Shown here: positions 24,151 to 39,745 of the stretch, one piece after another | How positions within the stretch are numbered: the first letter of the stretch is position 1 | Layout: each line of letters begins with the position of its first letter | From: Clostridia bacterium | GTDB lineage: Bacteria > Bacillota > Clostridia > Christensenellales > RUG350 | DNA length: 51,841 bases | Assembly (NCBI GenBank): GCA_017631635.1 | Contig: JAGBSX010000056.1 | Span: 1 to 51,841 of the forward strand | Direction of reading: 5' to 3' | Position numbers and translations under genes: made by a program | The notes under the pieces: model-generated | The model's input: the letters and a program-made list of their open reading frames with translations, nothing else | What the model was told of the DNA's origin: nothing | Databases searched by the model: none

Positions 24151-25887
24151 TTGAATAAAAAAATCAAACCTACTTCAAATACCATGTGGAGTTATATCTC
24201 CCCCAAGAAATGGGAGATTTCTCTAGGATTGATAGTCAAACTAATAGGTACGGTAGTCGAACTGCTACTACCTTGGATGCTATCGGTGATACTAGACGAA
24301 TTCGTACCTAGGGGAGATTTGCCAAATATTTGGCTATGGGGTGGACTGATGGTGTTGACCTCTTTGGTCGCACTAGTTGCCAACGTATTTGCCAATCGTT
24401 ATGCCACACGCATATCTAGGGATATCACCATACGAGTCAGAGGAGATTTGTTTAGAAAAGTCACCTCTCTACCTCAGAGTGCCGTAGACCGATTTACAGT
24501 ACCGTCTCTCATCTCTAGACTGACTAGCGACACCTACAATTTTCACTCTATGGTCGACCGTATGCAACGACTAGGAGTGCGCGCTCCTATATTACTCACA
24601 GGAGGACTAGTAGTCACGACGTTGATGGAGCCTACTCTCACGCTAATATTTGTAGGTATCATACCTATACTAGCGCTAGTGATATGGCTAGTGTCTTCAA
24701 ATGGCGTGAGGCTATTTGGAGTATCCCAACAAAAACTTGACCACACTCTCAAGCGTTCGCAGGAGAGTATGAACGGTATCAGGGTAATCAGGGCATTGTC
24801 TCGTGGAGAGTATGAAAAAGAGCGATTTGATATAGCCAACCGTGACTATATCGCTAGCGAGAAGAAGGCTACCTTGGTGATGAATATATCCTCGCCTGTG
24901 ATGAATTTGTTGCTAAATATCGGTCTGGCATTGGTCATACTGATAGGTGCGTACAGAGTCAACGAGGGATTGACTAGCGTAGGTACTATGATAGCATTTT
25001 TGAGTTATTTCACTATTATACTCAATTCGCTGATGATGGTATCGCGTATATTTATGATGCTCTCCAAGGGTACTGCTAGCGCAAATAGAATACAAGAAGT
25101 GCTAGATAGTGAGGACGACCTCCCACTACTAGATATACCTACCGTGGAGGAGGAGGGTTATATTACCTTTGACAAAGTGACTTTCTCCTACAACAAGGGT
25201 GTCAACAATCTAGAGGATATATCCTTTAGTCTCCCTAAGGGACAGACTCTAGGTATCATAGGAGGCACAGGCTCGGGCAAGAGTACTATCGTCAAATTGT
25301 TGATGAGATATTATGACGTGGACGAGGGTAGCATACGCATAGGTGGTCGCGACGTGAGGAGCATAGACCCCCACGCGCTATACTCTACCTTTGGCGTGGC
25401 TATGCAAAACGACTTTTTGTTTAGTGGTAGCGTCGGTGAAAACGTGGACTTTTTGAGAGATATACCCTCGGAGGATATCGCTAGGGCTGTAGAGACTTCT
25501 CAATCTAGTAGTATCATAGAGGGAGAGGGTTATGACAGACCTGTAGCAGGCAGAGGTCAAAATCTCAGCGGTGGTCAAAAGCAAAGACTATATATCGCTA
25601 GAGCCTTGGCAAATACCCCTGACATACTCATACTAGACGATAGTTCGTCGGCGCTTGATTATGCGACCGACCTAAAGTTGCGCACTCATATCAACAAAAA
25701 TTATGCCGATTGCACCAAGATAATAGTCTCCCAACGCATAGCGTCGGTACAAAATAGCGACCTTATCATAGTGCTACGAGATGGCAAGATAAGTGGAATA
25801 GGCACGCACGAGCAGTTGCTAAATAGTTGCGAAGATTATACGCAGATTGCTCAGGTGCAACTAGAGGGAGGTGAGATATATGGCTGA
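24151..25887 (+). CDS. ABC exporter half-transporter, subunit 1
   Basis: Fused permease-ATPase of the type IV (MsbA/LmrA-like) exporter class, 578 residues. Six helices in residues about 20-310 are followed by the nucleotide-binding domain with Walker A GGTGSGKST, signature LSGGQKQR, Walker B DILILDDSSSALD and the H-loop replaced: VSQRIASV has Gln where exporters usually have His. The D in place of the catalytic Glu after Walker B (LILDDSS) also points to a degenerate ATP site, as in asymmetric heterodimers such as BmrCD or TM287/288. The start is a TTG at 24151 after AGGAGGTG. It overlaps its partner by 8 bases. Confidence 0.92.
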   Translation: MNKKIKPTSNTMWSYISPKKWEISLGLIVKLIGTVVELLLPWMLSVILDEFVPRGDLPNIWLWGGLMVLTSLVALVANVFANRYATRISRDITIRVRGDLFRKVTSLPQSAVDRFTVPSLISRLTSDTYNFHSMVDRMQRLGVRAPILLTGGLVVTTLMEPTLTLIFVGIIPILALVIWLVSSNGVRLFGVSQQKLDHTLKRSQESMNGIRVIRALSRGEYEKERFDIANRDYIASEKKATLVMNISSPVMNLLLNIGLALVILIGAYRVNEGLTSVGTMIAFLSYFTIILNSLMMVSRIFMMLSKGTASANRIQEVLDSEDDLPLLDIPTVEEEGYITFDKVTFSYNKGVNNLEDISFSLPKGQTLGIIGGTGSGKSTIVKLLMRYYDVDEGSIRIGGRDVRSIDPHALYSTFGVAMQNDFLFSGSVGENVDFLRDIPSEDIARAVETSQSSSIIEGEGYDRPVAGRGQNLSGGQKQRLYIARALANTPDILILDDSSSALDYATDLKLRTHINKNYADCTKIIVSQRIASVQNSDLIIVLRDGKISGIGTHEQLLNSCEDYTQIAQVQLEGGEIYG

Positions 25888-27721
25888 CAAACCTTCTATA
25901 TCTAGTACTATCCCCCAAAACGTACCCAAAGCCCACGGAGGCCCAGGTGGTAGAGGTGGCTTTGAGAGACCAAAAGCCCCTACTAGGCAGATACTAGGCA
26001 GATTGATTAAGTACCTAGGAGGTCAAAAGTGGCTACTCATACTAGCGATATCTATATCTCTAGTGGCAAACCTACTCTCTCTCATAGGACCAAAACTCAG
26101 CGGTCTAGCCATAGATGCGCTCAAACTAGGCGAAGGTATGGTAGATTTTGAGACGGTGATATATTACGTCGTGATTATGATAGTAGGCTACGTACTGTCG
26201 GCGATACTCTCATATCTGCTTACTTTCATAATGGTCAATATAGGTAGAAATACCGTCTACCGTATGCGAAAGGACGTATTTGAACACTTGCTAAAACTCC
26301 CCGTATCCTTCTATGACCAACATCTAGTAGGAGACGTATTGAGTGTGATGAATTATGATATCGACAATATCTCTATGGCACTCAGCAACGACCTAGTGCA
26401 TATATTCACTTCGCTAGTCACCGTGATATTCTCATTTGTGATGATGCTCACCATATCTCCTGTGATGATACTTGTATTTTTGGTGACTATACCTATATCC
26501 GTGATATTCACTAGATACCGTACCAAGAAGGTGAGACCTATGTTTCGCAATAGGTCTATCAAACTAGGCGCTCTCAACTCCTACGCAGAGGAGATGACTG
26601 GTGGACTATCCACCATCAAGGCGTATGGTAGAGAAGAGGTATTTAATGCTAGATTTGACGAGTACAACGAGAGTGCTTGCGAGGCGAACTACGAGGCTGA
26701 CAAATTCGCTAGTACCACAGGACCGGCAGTTATGTTTATCAACAATTTGTCTCTAGCACTAGTGAGTATATTTGGCGCGCTTATGTATATGAGTGGCGTG
26801 ATTACCGTAGGAAACGTATCTTCTTTCGTGCTATACTCACGCAAATTCTCTGGACCTATCAACGAATTCGCCTCCATATTTAGCGAACTTCAGTCTGCTC
26901 TAGCATCTGCAGAGAGAGTATTTAGGCTACTAGACGAGTCTACCGAGACTCCCGACAAGGAGGGTGCAGTAGTACTCACAAATACTAGAGGAGAGGTGGA
27001 TATAGAGGACGTGCATTTTTCGTACGTGGAGGGTAGAGAGGTGCTACGAGGTGTCTCTCTCAAGGTAGAGAGTGGTCAAACCGTAGCGATAGTAGGTCAT
27101 ACAGGCTCGGGCAAGACTACGATTATCAATCTCCTCATGAGATTTTATGACGTGAACGCAGGATCTATCGCTATAGACGGCATAGACGTGAGAGATATGA
27201 CTAGAGATAGTCTACGACAATCTTTCTCTATGGTACTGCAAGACACTTGGCTATTTAGCGATACCATCATGAACAATCTTCGCTACGGTAGAGATGCCGT
27301 GAGTGATGAGGAGATAATCAGAGCCACCAAGGACGCAGGGGTGCACAAATTTATAGAGTCTCTGCCACAGGGCTACGATACGGTGCTCGCAGACGGTGGA
27401 GCATCTATCTCCAAAGGTCAAAAACAACTACTCACCATAGCCCGTGCTATGCTCAGCGACGCGCCTATGCTCATACTAGACGAGGCTACCTCAAACGTAG
27501 ATAGTCAGACGGAGATGGCTATACAGTCTGCTATGCTACGACTACGAGAGCACAAGACGTGTTTTGTCATAGCGCATAGACTATCTACTATCAAAAATGC
27601 CGACCTAATAGTAGTCATGAGAGATGGACTGATAGTAGAGAGTGGCACTCACGAAGAACTTATGGACAAGAGAGGGTATTATTACGAGTTGCACAATTCG
27701 CAATTTGAGACAGATTTGTAA
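25880..27721 (+). CDS. ABC exporter half-transporter, subunit 2
   Basis: Partner half-transporter, 613 residues, with a Gly/Pro-rich N-terminal cytosolic extension (about 1-40), six helices, then a nucleotide-binding domain with Walker A GHTGSGKTT, Walker B MLILDEATSNVD (catalytic Glu present) and H-loop IAHRLSTI. Its signature is ISKGQKQL rather than LSGGQ, so the two subunits together would form one canonical and one degenerate ATP site. The start at 25880 follows GGAGGTG and overlaps the subunit 1 stop, giving coupled translation. The substrate (drug, peptide or lipid) cannot be told from sequence. Confidence 0.93.
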   Translation: MADKPSISSTIPQNVPKAHGGPGGRGGFERPKAPTRQILGRLIKYLGGQKWLLILAISISLVANLLSLIGPKLSGLAIDALKLGEGMVDFETVIYYVVIMIVGYVLSAILSYLLTFIMVNIGRNTVYRMRKDVFEHLLKLPVSFYDQHLVGDVLSVMNYDIDNISMALSNDLVHIFTSLVTVIFSFVMMLTISPVMILVFLVTIPISVIFTRYRTKKVRPMFRNRSIKLGALNSYAEEMTGGLSTIKAYGREEVFNARFDEYNESACEANYEADKFASTTGPAVMFINNLSLALVSIFGALMYMSGVITVGNVSSFVLYSRKFSGPINEFASIFSELQSALASAERVFRLLDESTETPDKEGAVVLTNTRGEVDIEDVHFSYVEGREVLRGVSLKVESGQTVAIVGHTGSGKTTIINLLMRFYDVNAGSIAIDGIDVRDMTRDSLRQSFSMVLQDTWLFSDTIMNNLRYGRDAVSDEEIIRATKDAGVHKFIESLPQGYDTVLADGGASISKGQKQLLTIARAMLSDAPMLILDEATSNVDSQTEMAIQSAMLRLREHKTCFVIAHRLSTIKNADLIVVMRDGLIVESGTHEELMDKRGYYYELHNSQFETDL

Positions 27722-27801: not shown

Positions 27802-27830
27802 TTGACACGCATATAGGTATGTAGTATAAT
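27802..27830 (+). promoter_or_regulatory. Full-consensus sigma-A promoter for the small membrane protein
   Basis: TTGACA (27802-27807), exactly 17 bp, TATAAT (27825-27830). AGGAG at 27838-27842 means a leader of about 11 bases. It is one of two perfect consensus promoters with optimal spacing noted in the window. Confidence 0.88.
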
Positions 27831-27847
27831 TCTACATAGGAGCGAGT

Positions 27848-28315
27848 ATGAGAGATAGCGTTAAAAACACACTAAATATATCCTTGATATTCAAAGCAAC
27901 TATCGCATTTGCGTTGATGGTGGTTGCTTTTAGCATACTCTCATACGCTAGTATTTACTTTTATTATATCAGGAATTTCTTGGCTCAACTAGGCAACGTC
28001 AACGTAGAGATAGGAGTATTCTCTACTCAGACTACTAGCATATTTGCGAGATTCTCACACCTAGAGTACATACTATATTCATTTGCTCAAAACATATCTG
28101 CTATCAGCCAGATGATAGCCCTAGATATGAAGTTTGTGATATGCTACTATATGGATATGCTCACTCGTGTCAAAAATGTATTTTTCGTAGCGATTGATAC
28201 CCTCAAGACACAGATATATATCATCATTTCTATTTGCAAGAAGGCTATCAGTCTATCTACCGTAGAGGAGAAGACTACTAGTTTTTGCTTGCCATACACT
28301 AGACTAACTATATAA
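27848..28315 (+). CDS. Small unknown membrane protein behind a consensus promoter
   Basis: Function not recognised. The 155-residue protein has a strong hydrophobic segment at about 12-38 (LIFKATIAFALMVVAFSILS), then a long helical stretch rich in I, F, Y and M, and a second hydrophobic segment near 120-140 (VFFVAIDTLKTQIYIIISI). It has no catalytic motif and no Walker boxes. It is transcribed alone: a perfect promoter upstream, a UUCG hairpin overlapping the stop and a long terminator downstream. Codon use resembles the core genes, so it does not look recently acquired. Confidence 0.7.
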   Translation: MRDSVKNTLNISLIFKATIAFALMVVAFSILSYASIYFYYIRNFLAQLGNVNVEIGVFSTQTTSIFARFSHLEYILYSFAQNISAISQMIALDMKFVICYYMDMLTRVKNVFFVAIDTLKTQIYIIISICKKAISLSTVEEKTTSFCLPYTRLTI

Positions 28316-28340
28316 TCAGGCGTACTTCGGTGCGCCTGAT
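28315..28340 (+). other. Extra-stable hairpin with UUCG tetraloop at the 3' end of the small membrane-protein gene
   Basis: An 11-bp stem (ATCAGGCGTAC with GTGCGCCTGAT, one G-U pair) closes the loop c(UUCG)g. It starts on the last base of the stop codon. No T run follows, so it is more likely an mRNA 3'-end stabiliser than a terminator. Confidence 0.75.
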
Positions 28341-28373
28341 CGTCGTGCTATATATTGACACGCATTGATTAGG

Positions 28374-28415
28374 CGATTGTACCTACCACACGTGGTAGGG
28401 GTGCAGTCGTTTTTT
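28374..28415 (+). terminator. Intrinsic terminator with long stem
   Basis: CGATTGTACC and CCTACCAC pair with the sequence up to 28409 (a two-G bulge and some G-U pairs), followed by six T at 28410-28415. Confidence 0.8.
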
Positions 28416-28473
28416 ATATTTAAAAAATAGAGACGTTCGATTTGGGACATACTACTTGGGAGGAAGAGATTAA

Positions 28474-30702
28474 ATGACGTTTTTGTATTACGCATTTGCA
28501 ATAATATCGGGAGTGGCTACCTTCTTGCTTTTGTCAAAGTTTGCCAAAGGTGAGAACAAGGGGCGACTACTCAAATATATAGCCATAGGACTAGCATTGA
28601 TATTTGCCGTGAGATATTTGGGCAACAAGGTGGAGTTGACGTGGACTTATGCGCTAAATATCAATTCGCCATTTGGCAAGAGTGGAGGATTTGAGACACT
28701 TGTGTCCACCTTGGCTATATGGTTTTCGCTCACTAGCACCATCATACTAGTGACCTATCCATTTTTCTACGACAAGGTCAAGACTTATAGGATACTGCTT
28801 AGATATTTTGCGACGCCAGTCTTTGCGATTACTCTAGCCATGCTCCCACTAATCACGGTGGCTATGGACGGAGTGGCACTAGCCAATTCGTTGTACTTTA
28901 GAGACGTGATACTCTCTATAGAGGTAGGTATATCACTAGCATTTTCGCTACACCTCGCCCTCTCTAACAAAGAGAAGTTTGACTGGAAGTCGGTGAGGAC
29001 TGCTATACTACTGCTACTAGGTATGTTGGCTATCTCTATGCCTAGTTATACTCTCCAAGTCATCTTTGGCGAAGGTCCTACACACCTAGTCATAGACGAC
29101 TTTGAGCCAGCACACAGAGCATTACTCTACGGAGCAGTCGTGCTACCTGTCATCATACATTTGATATTTAGCAGATGTGATTACGAACTCAAGAGATGCG
29201 CTCTCATATTCATATCCGTAGCAGGTATGATTAGTTATTCGCATATAGTAGACTTCGGCGACTTGTCCCAGTTGAGATACTGGCCACTACACCTATGTAA
29301 TACTGCTATGTATATAGTACCTCTATGCTTGATATTCAAGATGAACAAACTATACTATTTCACTCTGTTTATCAACGTCTTTGGTGCGTTCCTCGCTATG
29401 ATTATGCCAAACAAGGACGGCGCTATACTCACAGCCGAGCAAGTCAACTTTTGGGTAAATCACTATATCGCATTTTTCATGCCGATACTATGTATATCCT
29501 TGAGGATATTCGAGAGGCCCAAACTCAAACAGTTTATCTACTCCCTCATAGCCTTTGCGTGCTACTACGTATTCGTACTCATAGTCAACGCCTACTACGG
29601 AGATACCGACTTCTTCTTCATCAATTCAAATTTCGTAGCAGAGAAGTTGGGTACTTGGGCAGAGAAACTATTGCAAGGCAACAACGTACTTACCTTCACT
29701 CTATTTGATAGGGCTATCACGTTGTACCCTATATACCAGACGTTGTTCTTCTTGGCGTACGTATTACTATCGTTTGCTATGTGGTTCGTGTACGAGCAGG
29801 CGTTTGCGTTTGCAGACCTATACGCAGATATGGGAGAGAGAAAGAGAAAAATCAAGGCTGATGCGATAGCATTGGAGATACAAATGAATGGAAGGAGTAT
29901 CACAGAACCTATGAATCTAGACGGTCAAAACAAATTGATATTGAGAAATTTTTCAAAGAAGTATGCTACCTCAAACGTATACGCAGTCAAAGACGCTAAT
30001 CTCGAGGTAGTGGGTGGAGAGATATTTGGATTTTTAGGTCCAAATGGTGCAGGTAAGTCTACTATCATCAAGAGTATAGTAGGTATACAGACTATCACCT
30101 CCGGCTCTATCGAGGTGTGTGGCTACGACGTGGAGAAACAACCCGTCGGCGCTAAGATGCAACTAGGATTTGTCCCAGACCACTACGCTCTATACGAAAA
30201 TCTCACGGGTAGAGAATACGTCAACTATATAGCCGACCTATATGGAGTATCTGTAGAGGACAGGACTGCTCGTATAGACGAGTACGTAGAGAGATTCAAT
30301 CTAACTCTCGCATTTGACAACAAAATCAAGACGTATTCGCACGGTATGAAACAAAAGATAACTATTATGTCAGCCCTAGTGCATGAGCCAAAGGTATGGA
30401 TACTAGACGAGCCTCTCACAGGTCTAGACCCTGAGAGTATATGGCAGGTCAAGGAGTGTATGAAGGCGCACGCCAAGAAAGGCAACATAGTATTTTTCTC
30501 ATCTCACATCATAGACGTAGTAGAGAGAATATGCGATAGAATCGCTATCATCAAAAAAGGTAATATACTATGCACTCGTACTATCAAGGAGATAGAGGAG
30601 AGTGGCGAAAAACTAGAGAACTATTATATGGATATGATAGGCGAGCAACGCAGAGACGACTCCGAATATGACAAGACCAATCTAGAGGGAGCAGAGGGAT
30701 AG
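28474..30702 (+). CDS. YwaF/TMEM164-like integral membrane domain fused to an ABC transporter ATPase
   Basis: A 742-residue fusion. Residues about 1-460 are a polytopic membrane domain with roughly twelve helices. Its segment YWPLHLCNTAMYI (about 269-281) is the hallmark His-x-Cys-Asn block of the YwaF / TP0381 / TMEM164 family. Residues about 485-715 are an ABC ATPase: Walker A GPNGAGKS (about 522-529), signature YSHGMKQK, Walker B VWILDEPLTGLDPES, H-loop FFSSHI. The junction (460-485) is charged and cytosolic. YwaF proteins are normally about 230-250 residues and stand alone, so the membrane part may be enlarged as well as fused. It starts the transcript with the permease gene one base downstream. 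GGGAGGA at 28458-28464 sets the start. Confidence 0.82.
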   Translation: MTFLYYAFAIISGVATFLLLSKFAKGENKGRLLKYIAIGLALIFAVRYLGNKVELTWTYALNINSPFGKSGGFETLVSTLAIWFSLTSTIILVTYPFFYDKVKTYRILLRYFATPVFAITLAMLPLITVAMDGVALANSLYFRDVILSIEVGISLAFSLHLALSNKEKFDWKSVRTAILLLLGMLAISMPSYTLQVIFGEGPTHLVIDDFEPAHRALLYGAVVLPVIIHLIFSRCDYELKRCALIFISVAGMISYSHIVDFGDLSQLRYWPLHLCNTAMYIVPLCLIFKMNKLYYFTLFINVFGAFLAMIMPNKDGAILTAEQVNFWVNHYIAFFMPILCISLRIFERPKLKQFIYSLIAFACYYVFVLIVNAYYGDTDFFFINSNFVAEKLGTWAEKLLQGNNVLTFTLFDRAITLYPIYQTLFFLAYVLLSFAMWFVYEQAFAFADLYADMGERKRKIKADAIALEIQMNGRSITEPMNLDGQNKLILRNFSKKYATSNVYAVKDANLEVVGGEIFGFLGPNGAGKSTIIKSIVGIQTITSGSIEVCGYDVEKQPVGAKMQLGFVPDHYALYENLTGREYVNYIADLYGVSVEDRTARIDEYVERFNLTLAFDNKIKTYSHGMKQKITIMSALVHEPKVWILDEPLTGLDPESIWQVKECMKAHAKKGNIVFFSSHIIDVVERICDRIAIIKKGNILCTRTIKEIEESGEKLENYYMDMIGEQRRDDSEYDKTNLEGAEG

Positions 30703-30703
30703 T

Positions 30704-32401
30704 ATGCAAAATACATCTACACAAGACAAGAAGAGAACCTTTTTGGATAATTTTGCCACTATCAAGACTCTGTCACTTATGCAACTCAAAGAAAAGATGG
30801 ACTTGAGTTTTTTGGGCAATTTCAAGAAGACTCTCTTTAAGACGATATGGACGATAGTAGAATTTGCCGTGGTGGCGGTGGTATGCTACTTTGTATTTTA
30901 TTTCGCAGGTATACTGGGCGTATTTTCGCTAATAGGCGACGTACCTACTAGTGTAATGACGATAGTATTTACCCTGATGATGGCGCTAAGTTTAGTGTCT
31001 ACTACTGCAGGTCTAGTCAAATCGCTATATTTTTCCAAAGACAATAGCGTGTTGCTAACCTTGCCTGTCACACCATCATTAGTATTTTTGTCCAAACTGG
31101 TCGTATACTACGTATATGAATTGCGCAAAAACTTTATGTTTATAGTACCTATGTTTTTGGCATACGGATTTTTTAAGGGTATGGTGATATGGTACTATCC
31201 TTGGATACTATTCATATTTGTATTTGTATCCGTGCTACCAGTACTACTATCGGCGCTACTCAGTATACCTTGTATGTACGTATACCAACTCATACGCAAG
31301 GTGCAAGTGATACAATATATACTTTACGTTGTGTTAGCAGGTGGACTGATAGCGCTAGGTTGGTATTTGATAGGACTAATCCCAGCAAATATCAATTTCG
31401 TAGAGACCTGGGGTACTACGTTTTGGGAGATACAAGCATTTTTGGAAGGATTTACTAAGACTTTCACTTTGATGCACGCATTTACCACTTTGATAGTAGG
31501 CAAGACACAAGGTTTGAGACTAGTATTATTTGACATCTCTAGTCTATGGGGAGCATTGATACTCATAGCGACCACAGCATTGTTGTTGGTATTGTGTTTC
31601 GTCCTAGCCAAGCCACTATTTTATCGTATGGCTAGCAAGCCTTTTGAGTTTAGCAAAGACGAGAGTATCACCGGCAAGAAAAACGTCAAGACAGGTGGAT
31701 TTTTGTCAGCATTACTCAAGGAGATAAAGATAGGTATACGTGGCAATTCTTTCATCAAGCTCGGTGCTATCGTGGTGGTAGTATTGCCTATGGCGATAGC
31801 CCTACTCAACAAGATGTATAGCGCTATGAATACTAGATTTTTGGGTACGCAGATGACTGTGGCGTTCAATCTAATGGTAGTGCTACTCATATTGCTACTC
31901 ACCAATATCGATATGGCGTCTGCATATAGTAGAGACGGCTCTACTGCTTATCTCAACAAGGTGCAACCCACCTCCTACGCCAAGATACTCTTTGCCAAAC
32001 TAGTGATGAATCTACTCATCACTCTAGTAGGAGTGATATTGACCACGGTAGTATTCTCTACTTATTCATCAATGTCACCTATCAACAACGTGCTATTTGG
32101 AGTAGTGTCGTATCTAGTGTATGCGTGTCATCTATTTTGGAGCGCAGAGACGGATCTGATGAATCCACAGTACGCGCAGTACGCCACCTTTAACGAACAG
32201 GCCAATAATCCAAATGAGAATACCTCCGTGCTACTACTATTTATACTATCATTGATATTCTTCGTGCTAGCACTATTCTTTGGACTAGAGGATGCTACTA
32301 GCGTGTTTGTCAAGTTGACTTTCGTAGCGGCAGCCCTCACGGTGTTCAAGGTGTACACCTATTTCACAAAGATCAAGTTGTATTATAAGGAGAAACAATA
32401 A
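30704..32401 (+). CDS. ABC transporter permease, large two-bundle type
   Basis: A 565-residue membrane protein with about twelve helices in two halves, separated by a charged segment (KPFEFSKDESITGKKNVKTGG, about 325-345, shown as a landmark). It resembles the large permeases of ABC-2 exporters encoded beside stand-alone ATPases. Its ATPase partner is almost certainly the fusion protein encoded immediately upstream, 1 base away. It overlaps the next gene by one base (TAATG). No periplasmic loop or known substrate motif stands out, so direction and cargo are unknown; the neighbouring lipoprotein suggests a cell-surface task. Confidence 0.85.
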   Translation: MQNTSTQDKKRTFLDNFATIKTLSLMQLKEKMDLSFLGNFKKTLFKTIWTIVEFAVVAVVCYFVFYFAGILGVFSLIGDVPTSVMTIVFTLMMALSLVSTTAGLVKSLYFSKDNSVLLTLPVTPSLVFLSKLVVYYVYELRKNFMFIVPMFLAYGFFKGMVIWYYPWILFIFVFVSVLPVLLSALLSIPCMYVYQLIRKVQVIQYILYVVLAGGLIALGWYLIGLIPANINFVETWGTTFWEIQAFLEGFTKTFTLMHAFTTLIVGKTQGLRLVLFDISSLWGALILIATTALLLVLCFVLAKPLFYRMASKPFEFSKDESITGKKNVKTGGFLSALLKEIKIGIRGNSFIKLGAIVVVVLPMAIALLNKMYSAMNTRFLGTQMTVAFNLMVVLLILLLTNIDMASAYSRDGSTAYLNKVQPTSYAKILFAKLVMNLLITLVGVILTTVVFSTYSSMSPINNVLFGVVSYLVYACHLFWSAETDLMNPQYAQYATFNEQANNPNENTSVLLLFILSLIFFVLALFFGLEDATSVFVKLTFVAAALTVFKVYTYFTKIKLYYKEKQ

Positions 32402-32886
32402 TGAAAAAGACAGTAATTATAGTTATATTCCTTATATATATAGCATCCATAGCGATAGTTAATTTCTTTGGATTACAGATATCGATATTCGAAGGTACTA
32501 CCTACGTGACGCATATAGACGTGACGATACGTGATAGAGAAGGCGAGATATTGCCTGTGTCCAAAGTACTAGACGACGGTACTATCGTATACAAGATAAC
32601 CTTTGACGGTGGAGAGGGTGGTGTCACCAAGTATGATGATTACGATTTGCTCAACCCAAATCTATTTGTCATCACACCACACGCTTATCCTGACAATGCG
32701 GGCAATACTCAGGTCAAAGTAGTATATGACGAGCAGAGTCTAGCAGGTAGAGCGCAGATAGACGACGACGGACTACAACCCCAACTATGGATACTAGTCA
32801 ACAAGGGACAATTTACCCTAGAGATACACTCTACGGACGGCTCAAACGTATCTACCAAAGTGCAGATACAAGTATGGCCTAGATAA
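32401..32886 (+). CDS. Small membrane-anchored extracytoplasmic protein
   Basis: A 161-residue protein with an N-terminal anchor or uncleaved signal (residues 4-25, KKTVIIVIFLIYIASIAI), then a beta-rich domain outside the membrane. The domain has repeated VT-type strands, an acidic middle (GGEGGVTKYDDYD) and an Ig-like end (KGQFTLEIHSTDGSN). I do not recognise the family. Its start overlaps the permease stop (TAATG), which implies coupled translation and a shared complex. A weak AT-rich hairpin plus seven T (about 32915-32936) separates it from the lipoprotein gene. Confidence 0.75.
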   Translation: MKKTVIIVIFLIYIASIAIVNFFGLQISIFEGTTYVTHIDVTIRDREGEILPVSKVLDDGTIVYKITFDGGEGGVTKYDDYDLLNPNLFVITPHAYPDNAGNTQVKVVYDEQSLAGRAQIDDDGLQPQLWILVNKGQFTLEIHSTDGSNVSTKVQIQVWPR

Positions 32887-32953
32887 CTAAATATATCCTT
32901 AGACTACGGTCTATGATATAAATATATCTTTTTTTCAAAAGGAGAAGAGAAAA

Positions 32954-35305
32954 ATGAAGAAACTAAAGACTTTTTTGGTAGTCATCTTGTCCATAGCCAT
33001 GGTGCTATCGGCAGGTTGTACGACACCCGGAGGACTTACTCTCACCTCCTTGGTGCTAGATGCTACTTCGGTAGATACCCAGTACGTGCTAGGTGATACC
33101 TACGATTTTAGCGGCATCAAATTAACAGCCAAGTACAACGACGCGTCTGAGAACAAGACGGTAGGATACGACGACGTAAAGATGACCTACGATACGGAGT
33201 TCAATACAAAACTAGGTACTCATACCATCACCGTCAAGTATACCGATAGTGACATAGGTCAGTCTCAAGAAACCACCTTTGAAGTGAGTGTAGTATCTTC
33301 TTCTGGAGGTACGACACCTGCAGAGACTATGGATGTAGCAGAATTCATCAAGCCAGCGGCTGTCACCAAATGCCTAGAACTAGCCAATGAAGATAGAAAA
33401 GCCTATGGTCAAGCAGGATACGAGGCTCAACTAGCCAAGAAGAATCCTGATTACAAAGTAGGAGATGACAATGCATTTAAGTTCGTCACCAAACTATGGG
33501 TATACGATTACGACCTCCAAGACACCGTAGAGGAGACCGGATTCGCTATCGAGGCTAAGATATACCAAGACGATATACTATTGGTAGCAGGAGAGGTAAG
33601 CGCTGACAACAAGGTAGAGTACACTCGTCCTAGCGAGACTGACGTGCTAGTGACTGTAGACGTAGTGAGACAAGAGTATCAATTTGCCTCCAACTTGGTA
33701 GGACAAAAGTTTAAGATCCAAGTCACTCCTGATACCGACGTGTATCTAATGGACACCCCTATCGTCCAAGAGATAACCGTCAACGTAGTAGATGGATACA
33801 ACGTATACGATCCTATACAACTAGCAGTCATAGACAATACCGACGTACTATACACTACTCACAAAAATGCTACTGCTTGGGCTAGTATCAAGTCTGCCAA
33901 CGGTCTGACAGGCGTCAATCCCAAGGCTATAATATTACAAAACGACCTACAAATCAAGGCAGAGCATATGCCAGAGTCTTTCTTGGGTACGCTACAAGAG
34001 GATTTTTACTACTACGATACCGTTATCGCAGAGGACACTACCACTTATACCAGACTAGAGGCTACACCAGCAGGCACTAAGTACATTAGAGACGGTGAAT
34101 TCTTGTATTACAGAGTAATAGCAGAAACAGATACTTTCACTGTAGAAGGTAACAGTTTCTCTATGGACTTTAGCCAAGCACCTCTGGCACCATCTAGCGA
34201 GGTTGCTCCCAAGGTTAGAGACAATGATGGCAACGTAATGGATGATTTTGGTAGCGATTTTTCCAACGTTTCAATATTCTACGTGGACGCGCCTAGAGAA
34301 AACGATCAAGTAGGTGGTAATTTCAATGTCAAGAACCTCGACTTGACTGGTAACGCTGAGCGTAGCCAAGTAGTAGACAAAGAGGGTGGAGACCTTAGGG
34401 GCTCTGGTGGTACTGTACTGCTCAAGACAAGAGAAACCACAGCCAACTACTACAACGTGACCATGCGCAAAGTATTCATAGGTGTTATAACTGAGGAGAG
34501 AGTAGGTTGTGCTAATATGGATTACGTCAAAGGATTTGACTTCTTCCAAAACGCACTATATGCGTGGGGTGGACAAATCAACGTTTCTAACTCTACGTTT
34601 GAGCGTTGTGGTGGACCTGTGGCTATAATTCAACACACTCACTACGGCACTGACGACTGGATACCTACTCTAAATATCGTTAATTCTACCCTCAAGAGCG
34701 AACTATCAGGACAAGAGTTCTGGTTCTCCACATTAGGTGCTAATCAAATGGCAGGTCAGATAGCATTGCTATCACAGATACTCACCCTCAATGGTATGGG
34801 ATCATACACCAACTCTGCTAGCAAGATGAACCTAGTCGCTTTGATTATGGAAGGTGAAGCAGATATCAGCGTTGTGGCCAACTACGGAGTAGAGGGTAAG
34901 GTAACTATTGCTGATAGCGAAGATGATACTACACCTTTCGTACTATCTCGTATGTACAGTGATGCTACCGACGTGATCGCACAGTACACCAAGGCTATTC
35001 AAGGGGGTTTGGAAGGAGGTCTGATAGTGCCACTATTTAGCGTCAACGAGAAGTTTGCATTCTTGCACGACCAAAATAACGCAGGATTGACTATGGTGGT
35101 CACAGGTAACGATCAATTACCTAACGATCAATTACCTGAGATTAAATACGATCAATTACCTAAGATTAAATTCAACCCAAGCTCCGAACTTACAGGTTCT
35201 TCGGCTGAGGACGTAAAAGAACTCAAGGACGCATTTAAAGCGACTGATTACTACGGACTCAACTACGGTGGATTTGGTATAGTCCTAGGTGGATACAACG
35301 CATAG
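32954..35305 (+). CDS. Large lipoprotein with Ig-like and beta-helix-like regions
   Basis: A 783-residue secreted lipoprotein: signal peptide with lipobox LSAGC (Cys 22). Residues about 30-112 form a bacterial Ig-like (Big-type) domain (YVLGDTYDFSGIKLTAKYND ... TITVKYTD). The region about 440-640 looks like a right-handed parallel beta-helix, with rungs such as FNVKNLDLTGN, INVSNSTFERC and LNIVNSTLKS. A short DQLP repeat lies near residue 720. It ends the four-gene unit that begins with the YwaF-ABC fusion. Its separate RBS (GGAGAAG) and the leaky hairpin upstream may set a different level. Function unknown; ligand binding or envelope assembly at the outer membrane face is inferred. Confidence 0.82.
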   Translation: MKKLKTFLVVILSIAMVLSAGCTTPGGLTLTSLVLDATSVDTQYVLGDTYDFSGIKLTAKYNDASENKTVGYDDVKMTYDTEFNTKLGTHTITVKYTDSDIGQSQETTFEVSVVSSSGGTTPAETMDVAEFIKPAAVTKCLELANEDRKAYGQAGYEAQLAKKNPDYKVGDDNAFKFVTKLWVYDYDLQDTVEETGFAIEAKIYQDDILLVAGEVSADNKVEYTRPSETDVLVTVDVVRQEYQFASNLVGQKFKIQVTPDTDVYLMDTPIVQEITVNVVDGYNVYDPIQLAVIDNTDVLYTTHKNATAWASIKSANGLTGVNPKAIILQNDLQIKAEHMPESFLGTLQEDFYYYDTVIAEDTTTYTRLEATPAGTKYIRDGEFLYYRVIAETDTFTVEGNSFSMDFSQAPLAPSSEVAPKVRDNDGNVMDDFGSDFSNVSIFYVDAPRENDQVGGNFNVKNLDLTGNAERSQVVDKEGGDLRGSGGTVLLKTRETTANYYNVTMRKVFIGVITEERVGCANMDYVKGFDFFQNALYAWGGQINVSNSTFERCGGPVAIIQHTHYGTDDWIPTLNIVNSTLKSELSGQEFWFSTLGANQMAGQIALLSQILTLNGMGSYTNSASKMNLVALIMEGEADISVVANYGVEGKVTIADSEDDTTPFVLSRMYSDATDVIAQYTKAIQGGLEGGLIVPLFSVNEKFAFLHDQNNAGLTMVVTGNDQLPNDQLPEIKYDQLPKIKFNPSSELTGSSAEDVKELKDAFKATDYYGLNYGGFGIVLGGYNA
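35108..35170 (+). repeat. In-frame microrepeat (DQLP units) in the lipoprotein gene
   Basis: CGATCAATTACCT occurs three times (starting near 35110, 35125 and 35149), with AGATTAAAT between and after. It encodes NDQLP, NDQLP and YDQLP. Its codon use (CAA TTA CCT, ATT AAA) is more AT-rich than the rest of the gene. Confidence 0.85.
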
Positions 35306-35313
35306 TAAGGTAT

Positions 35314-35352
35314 GGTGCGTCAGAAATGTTGCATTGCTGACGCACCGTTTTA
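35314..35352 (+). terminator. Intrinsic terminator of the lipoprotein operon
   Basis: GGTGCGTCAG (35314-35323) pairs with CTGACGCACC (35337-35346), followed by GTTTTATTT. Confidence 0.88.
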
Positions 35353-35434
35353 TTTGCCTAATGGCAAGTGATATTGCTAGTGCAGTTATATTTTGCTACG
35401 CAAAGTTATATTTTTGCTATCGCAAAAGTTGAGG
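35353..35434 (-). repeat. Mini-hairpin array B (inverted relative to array C)
   Basis: Read on the minus strand, the array runs CCTCAACTTTTGC-GATA-GCAAAA, TATAACT, TTTGC-GTA-GCAAA, TATAACT, TGC-ACTA-GCA, TATCACT, TTGCC-ATTA-GGCAA. It matches array C almost base for base; differences fall in loops or as paired stem changes. The 35306-35601 gap holds the operon terminator, this array and another terminator. Confidence 0.9.
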
Positions 35435-35601: not shown

Positions 35602-35958
35602 TTATCTATTATTCTCTTTTATTGTTTTACACGAAGAAATTAACATTTTGCGTATAAGACCACAATCGGTATTAAGTTTTTTATATAGTTCTTCTTCTAG
35701 ATATTTGGTTTCAAAAAGCAGTTCTAACCAGTACTCACTCTCATAACACTCTTTTAATGCTATCTCAAGTTTTGAGATAAAGTCAGCAGTTCCTTGTGCG
35801 TATTGAGCCTCGTGAATATTTGCGCCAATGCTAGTTCCAGAACGCAGAAGTTGATTAGTTAAAACATATTCTTTTTTATTTACTTTGATTGCATTTGTCA
35901 TAAAGACAATGTTTTTTGCAAACTCTTTTGCTTTTTCTCTTAAAACACTCTTGCTCAT
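35602..35958 (-). CDS. Four-helix-bundle protein, S23 / 23S rRNA intervening-sequence family
   Basis: A 118-residue helical protein matching the family first known from proteins encoded in 23S rRNA intervening sequences, related in fold to the Avd accessory protein of diversity-generating retroelements. Typical segments are KEYVLTNQLLRSGTSIGANI (GTSIGANIHEA core) and KLEIALKECYESEYWLELL. The length is normal for the family. Here it is neither inside an rRNA nor next to a reverse transcriptase. It is AT-rich relative to neighbours and sits between two inverted hairpin arrays (35353-35434 and 36058-36162). GAGGT at 35965-35969 supports the start. Molecular role unknown; members form pentameric, basic bundles that may bind nucleic acid. 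Confidence 0.9.
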   Translation of the reverse strand: MSKSVLREKAKEFAKNIVFMTNAIKVNKKEYVLTNQLLRSGTSIGANIHEAQYAQGTADFISKLEIALKECYESEYWLELLFETKYLEEELYKKLNTDCGLIRKMLISSCKTIKENNR

Positions 35959-38341: not shown

Positions 38342-39745
38342 ATGTTGTGTGCATTTGACCTAAAGGCGATAGTAGATACTATCAATAGCGTGCTTAGTGA
38401 CTACGTATTGTTGATACTATTAGTCGGTACTGGTATTTATTTCACCATACGCACTAGATTCGTGCAGTTTAGAGGTCTCAAGGACGGATTTAAGAGTATA
38501 TTTAGCCGTCGTGAACAATGTCAAAAGGGTGGCATTAGTTCATTTCAGGCATTGGCTACCGCTATAGCCGCCCAAGTCGGTACTGGCAATATCGTCGGTG
38601 CTTGTGGCGCTATACTTATCGGTGGACCAGGCGCTATATTTTGGATGTGGGTGATAGCCTTCTTTGGTATGGCTACCATATACGCAGAGGCAGTACTTGC
38701 CCAAGAGACTAGAGAAAAAGACCCCGACGGTAGTGTCAGAGGTGGCCCTGTGTACTACATCAAGAGAGTATTTAAGGGCAAGTTGGGCAAATTTTTGGCA
38801 GGATTCTTCGCAGTAGCAGCAGTTATCGCACTAGGCATAGTGGGTGGTATGGTGCAGAGTAATTCTATCAGCGCCAACTTCAATACTGCTTTTGGCGTAC
38901 CAGAGTGGGTGACTGGACTAGTCGTAGGTGCTTTGGTGGCAGTCATAGTGTTAGGTGGTGCTACTCGTATAGCCAAAGTCGCAGAGAAGATAGTACCTAT
39001 CATGGCGATACTCTATCTACTAGGAGGTATCGTAGTGCTAGCAGTAAACGTCACTACTCTCCCTGAGACTTTCGCTATGATATTTAGAGAGGCATTTACC
39101 CCTCACGCAGTAGTAGGTGCAGGATTTGGCGCAGTCATCAAGTCTGCTACCCAAGGTGCTAAGAGAGGACTATTTTCTAACGAGGCAGGTATGGGTTCTA
39201 CTCCTCACGCTCACGCACTAGCCGAGGTCAAGTCTCCTCACGAGCAAGGCTCTGTGGCTATGGTAGGTGTGTTTATAGATACCTTCGTAGTGTTGACTAT
39301 CACGGCGCTAGTAGTTATCAACGTGCTTTACGTCAACGGCGAGGTGAGACCTGACGCTACCTTCAATAGCGCTAATATGGCGCAGATGGCGTTTGGCTCG
39401 GTATTTGGCACGGAGATAGGCAATATCTTCGTAGCAATATGCTTGTTGTTCTTTGCTTTTACTACTATACTTGGCTGGAATTTGTTTGGTAAGATTAACT
39501 TCGAACATCTATTTGGCAAGAAATCTCTAGTTATCTACTCTATCATCTCTATAATAGGCGTAGTAGTCGGTTCTTTCCTAGGCAACGATACCGTGTGGGC
39601 GTTTAGCGATTTGTTCAATCAACTAATGGTCATACCCAACGTAATGGCGCTAATAGCCCTATCTTCGCTAGTAGTCAACGCTTGCAAGAAGAAACCCGTA
39701 GACAAAGAGCCTACCCCTCCTACTTCTCAAGAAATTGAGAAATAA
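38342..39745 (+). CDS. Sodium:alanine/glycine symporter, AGCS family
   Basis: Inner-membrane sodium-coupled amino-acid symporter of 467 residues with about eleven helices. Family signatures include FQALATAIAAQVGTGNIVGA, GGPGAIFWMW and the SNEAGMGSTPHAHALA block. The glycine riboswitch in its leader says that glycine is a ligand signal, and probably a substrate. Because glycine riboswitches can switch either way, whether it imports or exports under excess glycine is not settled by sequence alone. GGAGG is at 38331-38335. It is monocistronic with a terminator at 39765. Confidence 0.94.
   Translation: MLCAFDLKAIVDTINSVLSDYVLLILLVGTGIYFTIRTRFVQFRGLKDGFKSIFSRREQCQKGGISSFQALATAIAAQVGTGNIVGACGAILIGGPGAIFWMWVIAFFGMATIYAEAVLAQETREKDPDGSVRGGPVYYIKRVFKGKLGKFLAGFFAVAAVIALGIVGGMVQSNSISANFNTAFGVPEWVTGLVVGALVAVIVLGGATRIAKVAEKIVPIMAILYLLGGIVVLAVNVTTLPETFAMIFREAFTPHAVVGAGFGAVIKSATQGAKRGLFSNEAGMGSTPHAHALAEVKSPHEQGSVAMVGVFIDTFVVLTITALVVINVLYVNGEVRPDATFNSANMAQMAFGSVFGTEIGNIFVAICLLFFAFTTILGWNLFGKINFEHLFGKKSLVIYSIISIIGVVVGSFLGNDTVWAFSDLFNQLMVIPNVMALIALSSLVVNACKKKPVDKEPTPPTSQEIEK

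Follow-up and report, generated by a model that had tools for sequence, protein, structure and literature searches.

A single uninterrupted frame of 742 codons in the stretch of clostridial DNA analyzed here (51,841 nucleotides; the window) joins a membrane domain of the TMEM164/YwaF family to a complete ABC ATPase, and heads a compact four-gene unit that is conserved in relatives. The parts are of known kinds, and the combination is new to us. Tentatively, and at somewhat less than even confidence, we favor a reading in which the unit encodes an ABC machine of the envelope that has an acyl-transfer enzyme built into it; this enzyme would face outward and act on a lipid or a lipid-linked substrate.

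Human TMEM164 is a lipid-remodeling enzyme tied to ferroptosis. TMEM164/YwaF proteins are widespread in bacteria, to our knowledge without a known function, and we know of no activity of a bacterial family member. According to two papers that cite the primary work, the human protein is reported to move acyl chains from one phospholipid to another, dependent on a cysteine and independent of CoA (PMC13276253; PMC10474074). An earlier reading of the window, made from the letters alone (the sequence-only reading), knew of no described system with this composition, and likewise neither a TMEM164-ABC fusion nor a function of bacterial YwaF was found in the literature covered, which is incomplete; domain databases may list the architecture uncommented.

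Organization of the four-gene unit

The four genes, here called A to D, all lie on the forward (+) strand of the window, at the positions first assigned to them. A (28474..30702) encodes the 742-aa fusion protein, with six N-terminal transmembrane (TM) helices, the TMEM164/YwaF domain and the ABC ATPase. One base past its stop codon starts B (30704..32401), which encodes a 565-aa permease, possibly of a distant ABC-2 type, with approximately 12 predicted TM helices. B overlaps C (32401..32886) in a TAATG junction; the 161-aa product of C consists of one N-terminal TM anchor and, as an addition to the earlier reading, a Big_2-like Ig domain outside. After a gap of 67 bases follows D (32954..35305), encoding a surface lipoprotein with an LSAGC lipobox, in which a Big_3 Ig domain is combined with a predicted right-handed beta-helix. 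The operon-like spacing and the 783-residue lipoprotein downstream are therefore as originally described.

As judged from the sequence, the unit appears to be closed by a terminator-like hairpin 3' of D (35314..35355, + strand), with a 10-bp stem at 35314-35346 followed by the T-rich GTTTTATTT. The leader of the unit (28317..28416, + strand) contains two stable hairpins (z -3.2), the second with a T6 tail. These are terminator- or attenuator-like, and might be the terminator of an upstream unit or an attenuator. A riboswitch in the leader of A was considered and rejected, as comparison of the leader with Rfam gave no match. Upstream of the leader hairpins and gene A, a sigma-70-like promoter is found (TTGCCA-16-TATAAT); promoter and hairpins together occupy 28289-28416 of the window.

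The TMEM164/YwaF domain of the fusion protein

By profile score, A is a member of the TMEM164/YwaF family. Pfam places PF14808 (TMEM164) on residues 211-428, where the score of 71.8 bits (E 7.3e-20) far exceeds the cut-off of 25, and PF00005 (ABC_tran) on residues 506-648 (E 6.8e-26), corroborating the claim of a TMEM164/YwaF-type domain joined in one frame to an ATPase. The domain stretch alone (residues 200-460; 29071..29853, + strand) gives an E of 3.8e-20, and PF14808 matches 24 of 24 homologues of A. Of the two family models named in the sequence-only reading, the Pfam model thus scores well above its threshold, whereas TIGR02206, the NCBI model for the TP0381-type membrane protein, gives A 62.4 bits and stays under its cut-off of 75. 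That the N-terminal half is an ordinary ABC permease can be dismissed, since no ABC permease family is among its Pfam matches.

Like its family, A has a polytopic domain of approximately 220 residues with the same invariant Cys and His. In contrast to A, most other members found here are separate proteins of approximately 240-400 residues, in keeping with the earlier remark that YwaF/TMEM164 proteins are normally separate and short; A adds six N-terminal helices and a C-terminal ABC ATPase. The extra helices (residues 1-200; 28474..29073, + strand) lie outside the Pfam domain, form a block with a pLDDT mostly of 85-97 in the AlphaFold model, and are present, according to sequence matches, in unfused long forms of the protein too. 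An origin of residues 1-200 as an internal duplicate of the TMEM164 domain was discarded on a profile comparison (probability 1%). The complete model of A (mean pLDDT 86) predicts 13 membrane helices ahead of the ATPase. When the complete protein A was compared by fold, all matches were to the ATPase, with none for the membrane part, and a search by sequence gave no solved relative.

Analysis of the conservation points to a candidate catalytic cysteine, Cys275 in the HLC block (His273-Leu-Cys275; 29290..29298, + strand), and a candidate catalytic histidine, His330 (29461..29463, + strand), each present in 42/42 fusions. Within these 42 fused proteins His273, Asn301, Gly304 and Pro312 never vary either, and both Cys275 and His330 are kept in 6/6 stand-alone relatives and 6/6 unfused long forms. 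When 24 fusions are aligned with 6 stand-alone members, which share 13-20% identity with the domain of the window's A, the sole invariant columns are Cys275, Pro312 and His330.

As the ATPase must be cytoplasmic, the sides of the loops are set, and the resulting alternation agrees with the positive-inside rule for a 13-helix topology (K+R per residue of 0.231 in inner loops vs. 0.063 in outer loops). In this predicted topology Cys275, His273 and His214 are located at outer helix ends and His330 in an outer half, placing the Cys275/His330 pair toward the outer side of the membrane. Family membership and the invariant residues suggest that the bacterial domain may perform chemistry similar to that of human TMEM164, though the pair could be structural rather than catalytic.

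The ATPase and the permease

The nucleotide-binding domain of A (residues 487-725; 29932..30648, + strand) has intact Walker A, Walker B, signature and H-switch motifs, and the ATPase is complete as first read. Residues G522, N524, G525, G527, K528, S529 and T530 are conserved in 42/42 fusions, as are S622, G624, Q627, D645, E646 (Walker B with the catalytic Glu) and H678. The nearest solved ATPases in a family-profile search are those of the phospholipid transporters ABCA3/4/1/7 (E down to 4e-75), followed by NosF and LptB; for NosF, the sequence match has an E of 1.6e-36 and the fold match a Z of 27.6 (rmsd 2.0, 233 aligned). Despite this likeness, ABCA ATPases are fused to their own ABC permease, whereas the permease of the unit belongs to another family and has its own gene, and the part fused to the ATPase is TMEM164-like.

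For B, a threshold of E <= 0.01 is passed by PF16949 matches in 18 of 24 homologues, the best of which reaches 5e-11; the window's own B, at E 0.028, is below the cut-off. This weak relation and the approximately 12 predicted helices suggest that B is probably a whole permease pair in one chain.

Among NCBI ATPase models, the DrrA- and GldA-type exporter profiles come first for A, all below their cut-offs. The unit could accordingly be viewed as an exporter of a drug, peptide or bacteriocin, with a non-enzymatic fused membrane domain. Large conserved outer proteins are, however, generally uncommon for such pumps, and at 49 loci no gene family recurs beside the unit, except for neighbors common to close relatives. 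We therefore consider a plain exporter, the alternative with the least support from context, quite improbable.

Outer proteins

The lipobox cysteine predicted at the end of the signal peptide of D is Cys22, and a signal with a lipobox-type Cys is found in 44/44 separate D proteins, of which 40 fit a strict pattern and 4 were recognized by eye; the Big_3 domain is present in 17 of 22 D homologues. D is modeled as a right-handed beta-helix (mean pLDDT 78, pTM 0.74), with polygalacturonase 1bhe as its best fold match (Z 15.4, rmsd 3.3, 235 aligned). Within the beta-helix region N283, L290, P340, G399, N400, N467 and G554 never vary, and the homologue alignment contains no invariant acidic residue there. 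An active GH28-type glycosidase was rejected for this lack of invariant catalytic acids, and as the invariant residues are Asn, Gly, Leu and Pro, binding or scaffolding is a likelier role for the predicted beta-helix than cleavage.

NosDFY is made up of an ABC ATPase, an ABC-2-like permease and an outer beta-helix protein, a set that A, B (possibly ABC-2-like) and D (a predicted beta-helix) would match, and NosF is among the closest solved ATPases. The unit might work by a similar mechanotransmission, in which ATP hydrolysis by A moves B, and hence D and C, so that an envelope partner or glycan is changed, with the TMEM164 domain as a non-catalytic anchor or tuner. This would fit with the resemblance of D to carbohydrate-active beta-helix proteins, yet without an invariant acid, and with the retention of ATPase, permease and anchored Ig protein in sister systems that lack the domain. 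On the other hand, the ABCA ATPases outscore NosF, B holds approximately 12 helices in one chain, and the strict conservation of Cys275 and His330 is left unexplained. We regard this explanation as rather unlikely, at roughly one chance in four. NosDFY is without a TMEM164 domain; the unit described here further differs by its additional anchored Ig protein, by the 12 helices of its permease and by a lipoprotein that carries Big_3. The listed fold matches of D do not include NosD, which may lie beyond the listing. No copper or nos genes recur beside the unit at the 49 loci.

Distribution and origin of the fusion

In a GTDB genome scan, 24 relatives were identified, mostly uncultured gut or rumen Clostridia; the first 23 relatives share 36-61% identity with the window's A. 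Within a sample of the host order the domain is encoded in 40 of 297 genomes, and is fused to the ATPase in 36 of those 40. These 36 genomes and the separate scan are the source of the 42 distinct fused proteins that were aligned. One relative (L020) is titled Bacilli; samples of the phylum (398 genomes) and the class (291 genomes) contained no fusion outside the order.

The source genome (1.32 Mb) is in 59 contigs, and one locus (L069) has both parts of A as separate adjacent genes, which might suggest that two neighboring genes were joined through an artefact of assembly or annotation. This can be put at next to nothing: 42 distinct fusions are found across many assemblies, and the permeases of the fused systems group with 100/99 support. 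The conserved fusions in relatives refute an assembly join, and also exclude that the fusion is missing in close relatives, an outcome that the sequence-only reading had named as damaging.

The search for the same fusion and gene order in other genomes, which that reading had proposed, gave a positive result: the order A-B-C-D is kept in relatives as far as the contigs reach, and the host-order loci agree. In one locus (L022) C and D are merged in a single protein of 1022 aa, and in another (L015) D is interrupted by a stretch of undetermined bases. As the flanks are common to close relatives only, the four genes form a self-contained unit. A tree of the permeases gathers the fused systems in one group, apart from the domain-less systems; L069, where the parts are split, and L071, a divergent fusion, are placed between the two. 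The fused systems may thus stem from one origin.

Six loci in the host order encode an unfused long TMEM164 form of 484-517 aa. At L069 this separate gene lies beside genes for an ATPase, a permease, an anchored Ig protein and a 1355-aa lipoprotein; the other five are without ABC genes alongside. In two of these five (L123:4667-7118 and L124:4286-6881) the long TMEM164-type gene overlaps or nearly abuts an acyltransferase-3 gene (PF01757, E 5.5e-18 and 1.1e-17); the two genomes belong to different families. Acyltransferase-3 proteins are unrelated in sequence to the TMEM164 family, and none is encoded inside the four-gene unit. The family is known to modify bacterial surface molecules (PMC9558356), and acyltransferase-3 systems are described as employing acyl-CoA in the acylation of glycans (PMC9558356; PMC12423673). 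The shared operons provide modest independent support for an acyl-transfer role of the TMEM164 domain, but they are limited to two loci, which counts against it. One locus (L120:1731-7893) has adjacent genes for two TMEM164-family proteins, one short and one long, in the vicinity of a pair of genes that by eye are phosphonate-pathway-like (PEP mutase and phosphonopyruvate decarboxylase).

B-type permeases occur in 194 of 297 host-order genomes. The second-tier permease matches that were fetched lie beside a plain ATPase, and TM-anchored Big_2 proteins (one or two, 800-1700 aa long) are often encoded there too. Such systems (L072-L085) form a widespread ABC class that appears undescribed so far; the copies at L077, L078 and L081 are near a lepA-like gene. 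They share with the unit a homologous ATPase and permease, as well as outer Ig proteins that are anchored and of which one matches a beta-helix weakly, and differ in lacking the TMEM164 domain and in having TM-anchored outer proteins, often two in tandem, instead of C and a lipoprotein D. Because these ABC relatives work without it, the TMEM164 domain is best seen as an accessory, added to an existing ABC class. Once it is present, the outer part is usually split in an anchored C and a lipoprotein D. The unit is thereby a pointer to a wider group of ABC systems in gut bacteria, so far undescribed, whose outer proteins are of the Ig and beta-helix kinds.

Proposed mechanism

We propose that A to D work as one envelope machine, a reading for which we count the gene order kept amid unrelated flanks and the occurrence of C and D as one protein in L022. 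Permease B would be driven by two copies of the ATPase of A, each copy adding a 13-helix membrane unit with a Cys275/His330 site that opens outward. At this site a phospholipid would give up an acyl chain, which would be held as a thioester of the cysteine and then transferred to an outer-leaflet acceptor, either a lipid or lipid-linked molecule moved by B, or the lipid anchor of D. The Ig domain of C may dock on the outer face, and the beta-helix lipoprotein D may receive or position the product outside. The acyl-transfer part of the proposal is suggested by the invariant, outward-facing Cys and His, the ABCA-like ATPase, and the acyltransferase-3 neighbors of two unfused forms. Of the lipid-modifying transport machine suggested in the sequence-only reading, the composition, the conserved unit and the family membership now stand as observations, whereas modification of the cargo is the option we favor by inference.

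Alternatively, the site could be dedicated to lipoproteins, adding or removing an acyl chain on the N-terminal Cys of D or of lipoproteins generally, with the ABC part extracting or positioning the lipoprotein. D is a lipoprotein wherever its gene is separate, as opposed to the TM-anchored outer proteins of domain-less systems, the site is predicted at the outer leaflet, and the host genome encodes Lgt and gives no match to the Lnt model. However, L022 and L071 carry the domain and yet have a TM-anchored outer protein, so that the lipid anchor of D cannot be the acceptor in every system. Moreover, a possible single origin of the fused systems means that the association does not represent independent events, and the fusion is encoded in only 36 of 297 order genomes, whereas lipoproteins are general. 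We hold such a dedicated role to be improbable.

Returning to the favored machine, its fixed four-gene unit ties the TMEM164/YwaF family to one definite process, by which lipidic material would be moved or presented on the outside of the membrane. With perhaps one chance in four, it may carry out an ATP-coupled envelope acylation, in which a CoA-independent outward transacylase fused to a motor acylates a lipid, a glycolipid or a lipoprotein anchor at the outer leaflet while this is moved or presented. If true, this would be a process not described before and the first function for bacterial TMEM164/YwaF proteins. The unit also offers a compact system in which the chemistry of the family can be tested with the single mutants C275A and H330A.

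Adjoining features of the window

Just upstream of the unit (24151-27721) the window encodes two overlapping half-size ABC exporters (ABC_membrane + ABC_tran), which probably form a heterodimer; other genomes do not keep this pair next to the unit. A promoter with 12/12 identity to the sigma-70 consensus precedes a hydrophobic ORF of 155 aa at 27848-28315 (window 27802-28315), which gave no match in Pfam; a small membrane protein and a non-coding RNA are both conceivable here. Adjoining the unit at its other end, on the reverse strand (35602-35958), is a member of the 23S rRNA-intervening-sequence protein family (PF05635). Further downstream, a glycine riboswitch aptamer (RF00504; 38188-38277) lies directly 5' of a gene (38342-39745) whose 467-aa product, a membrane protein, resembles a sodium-amino acid symporter.
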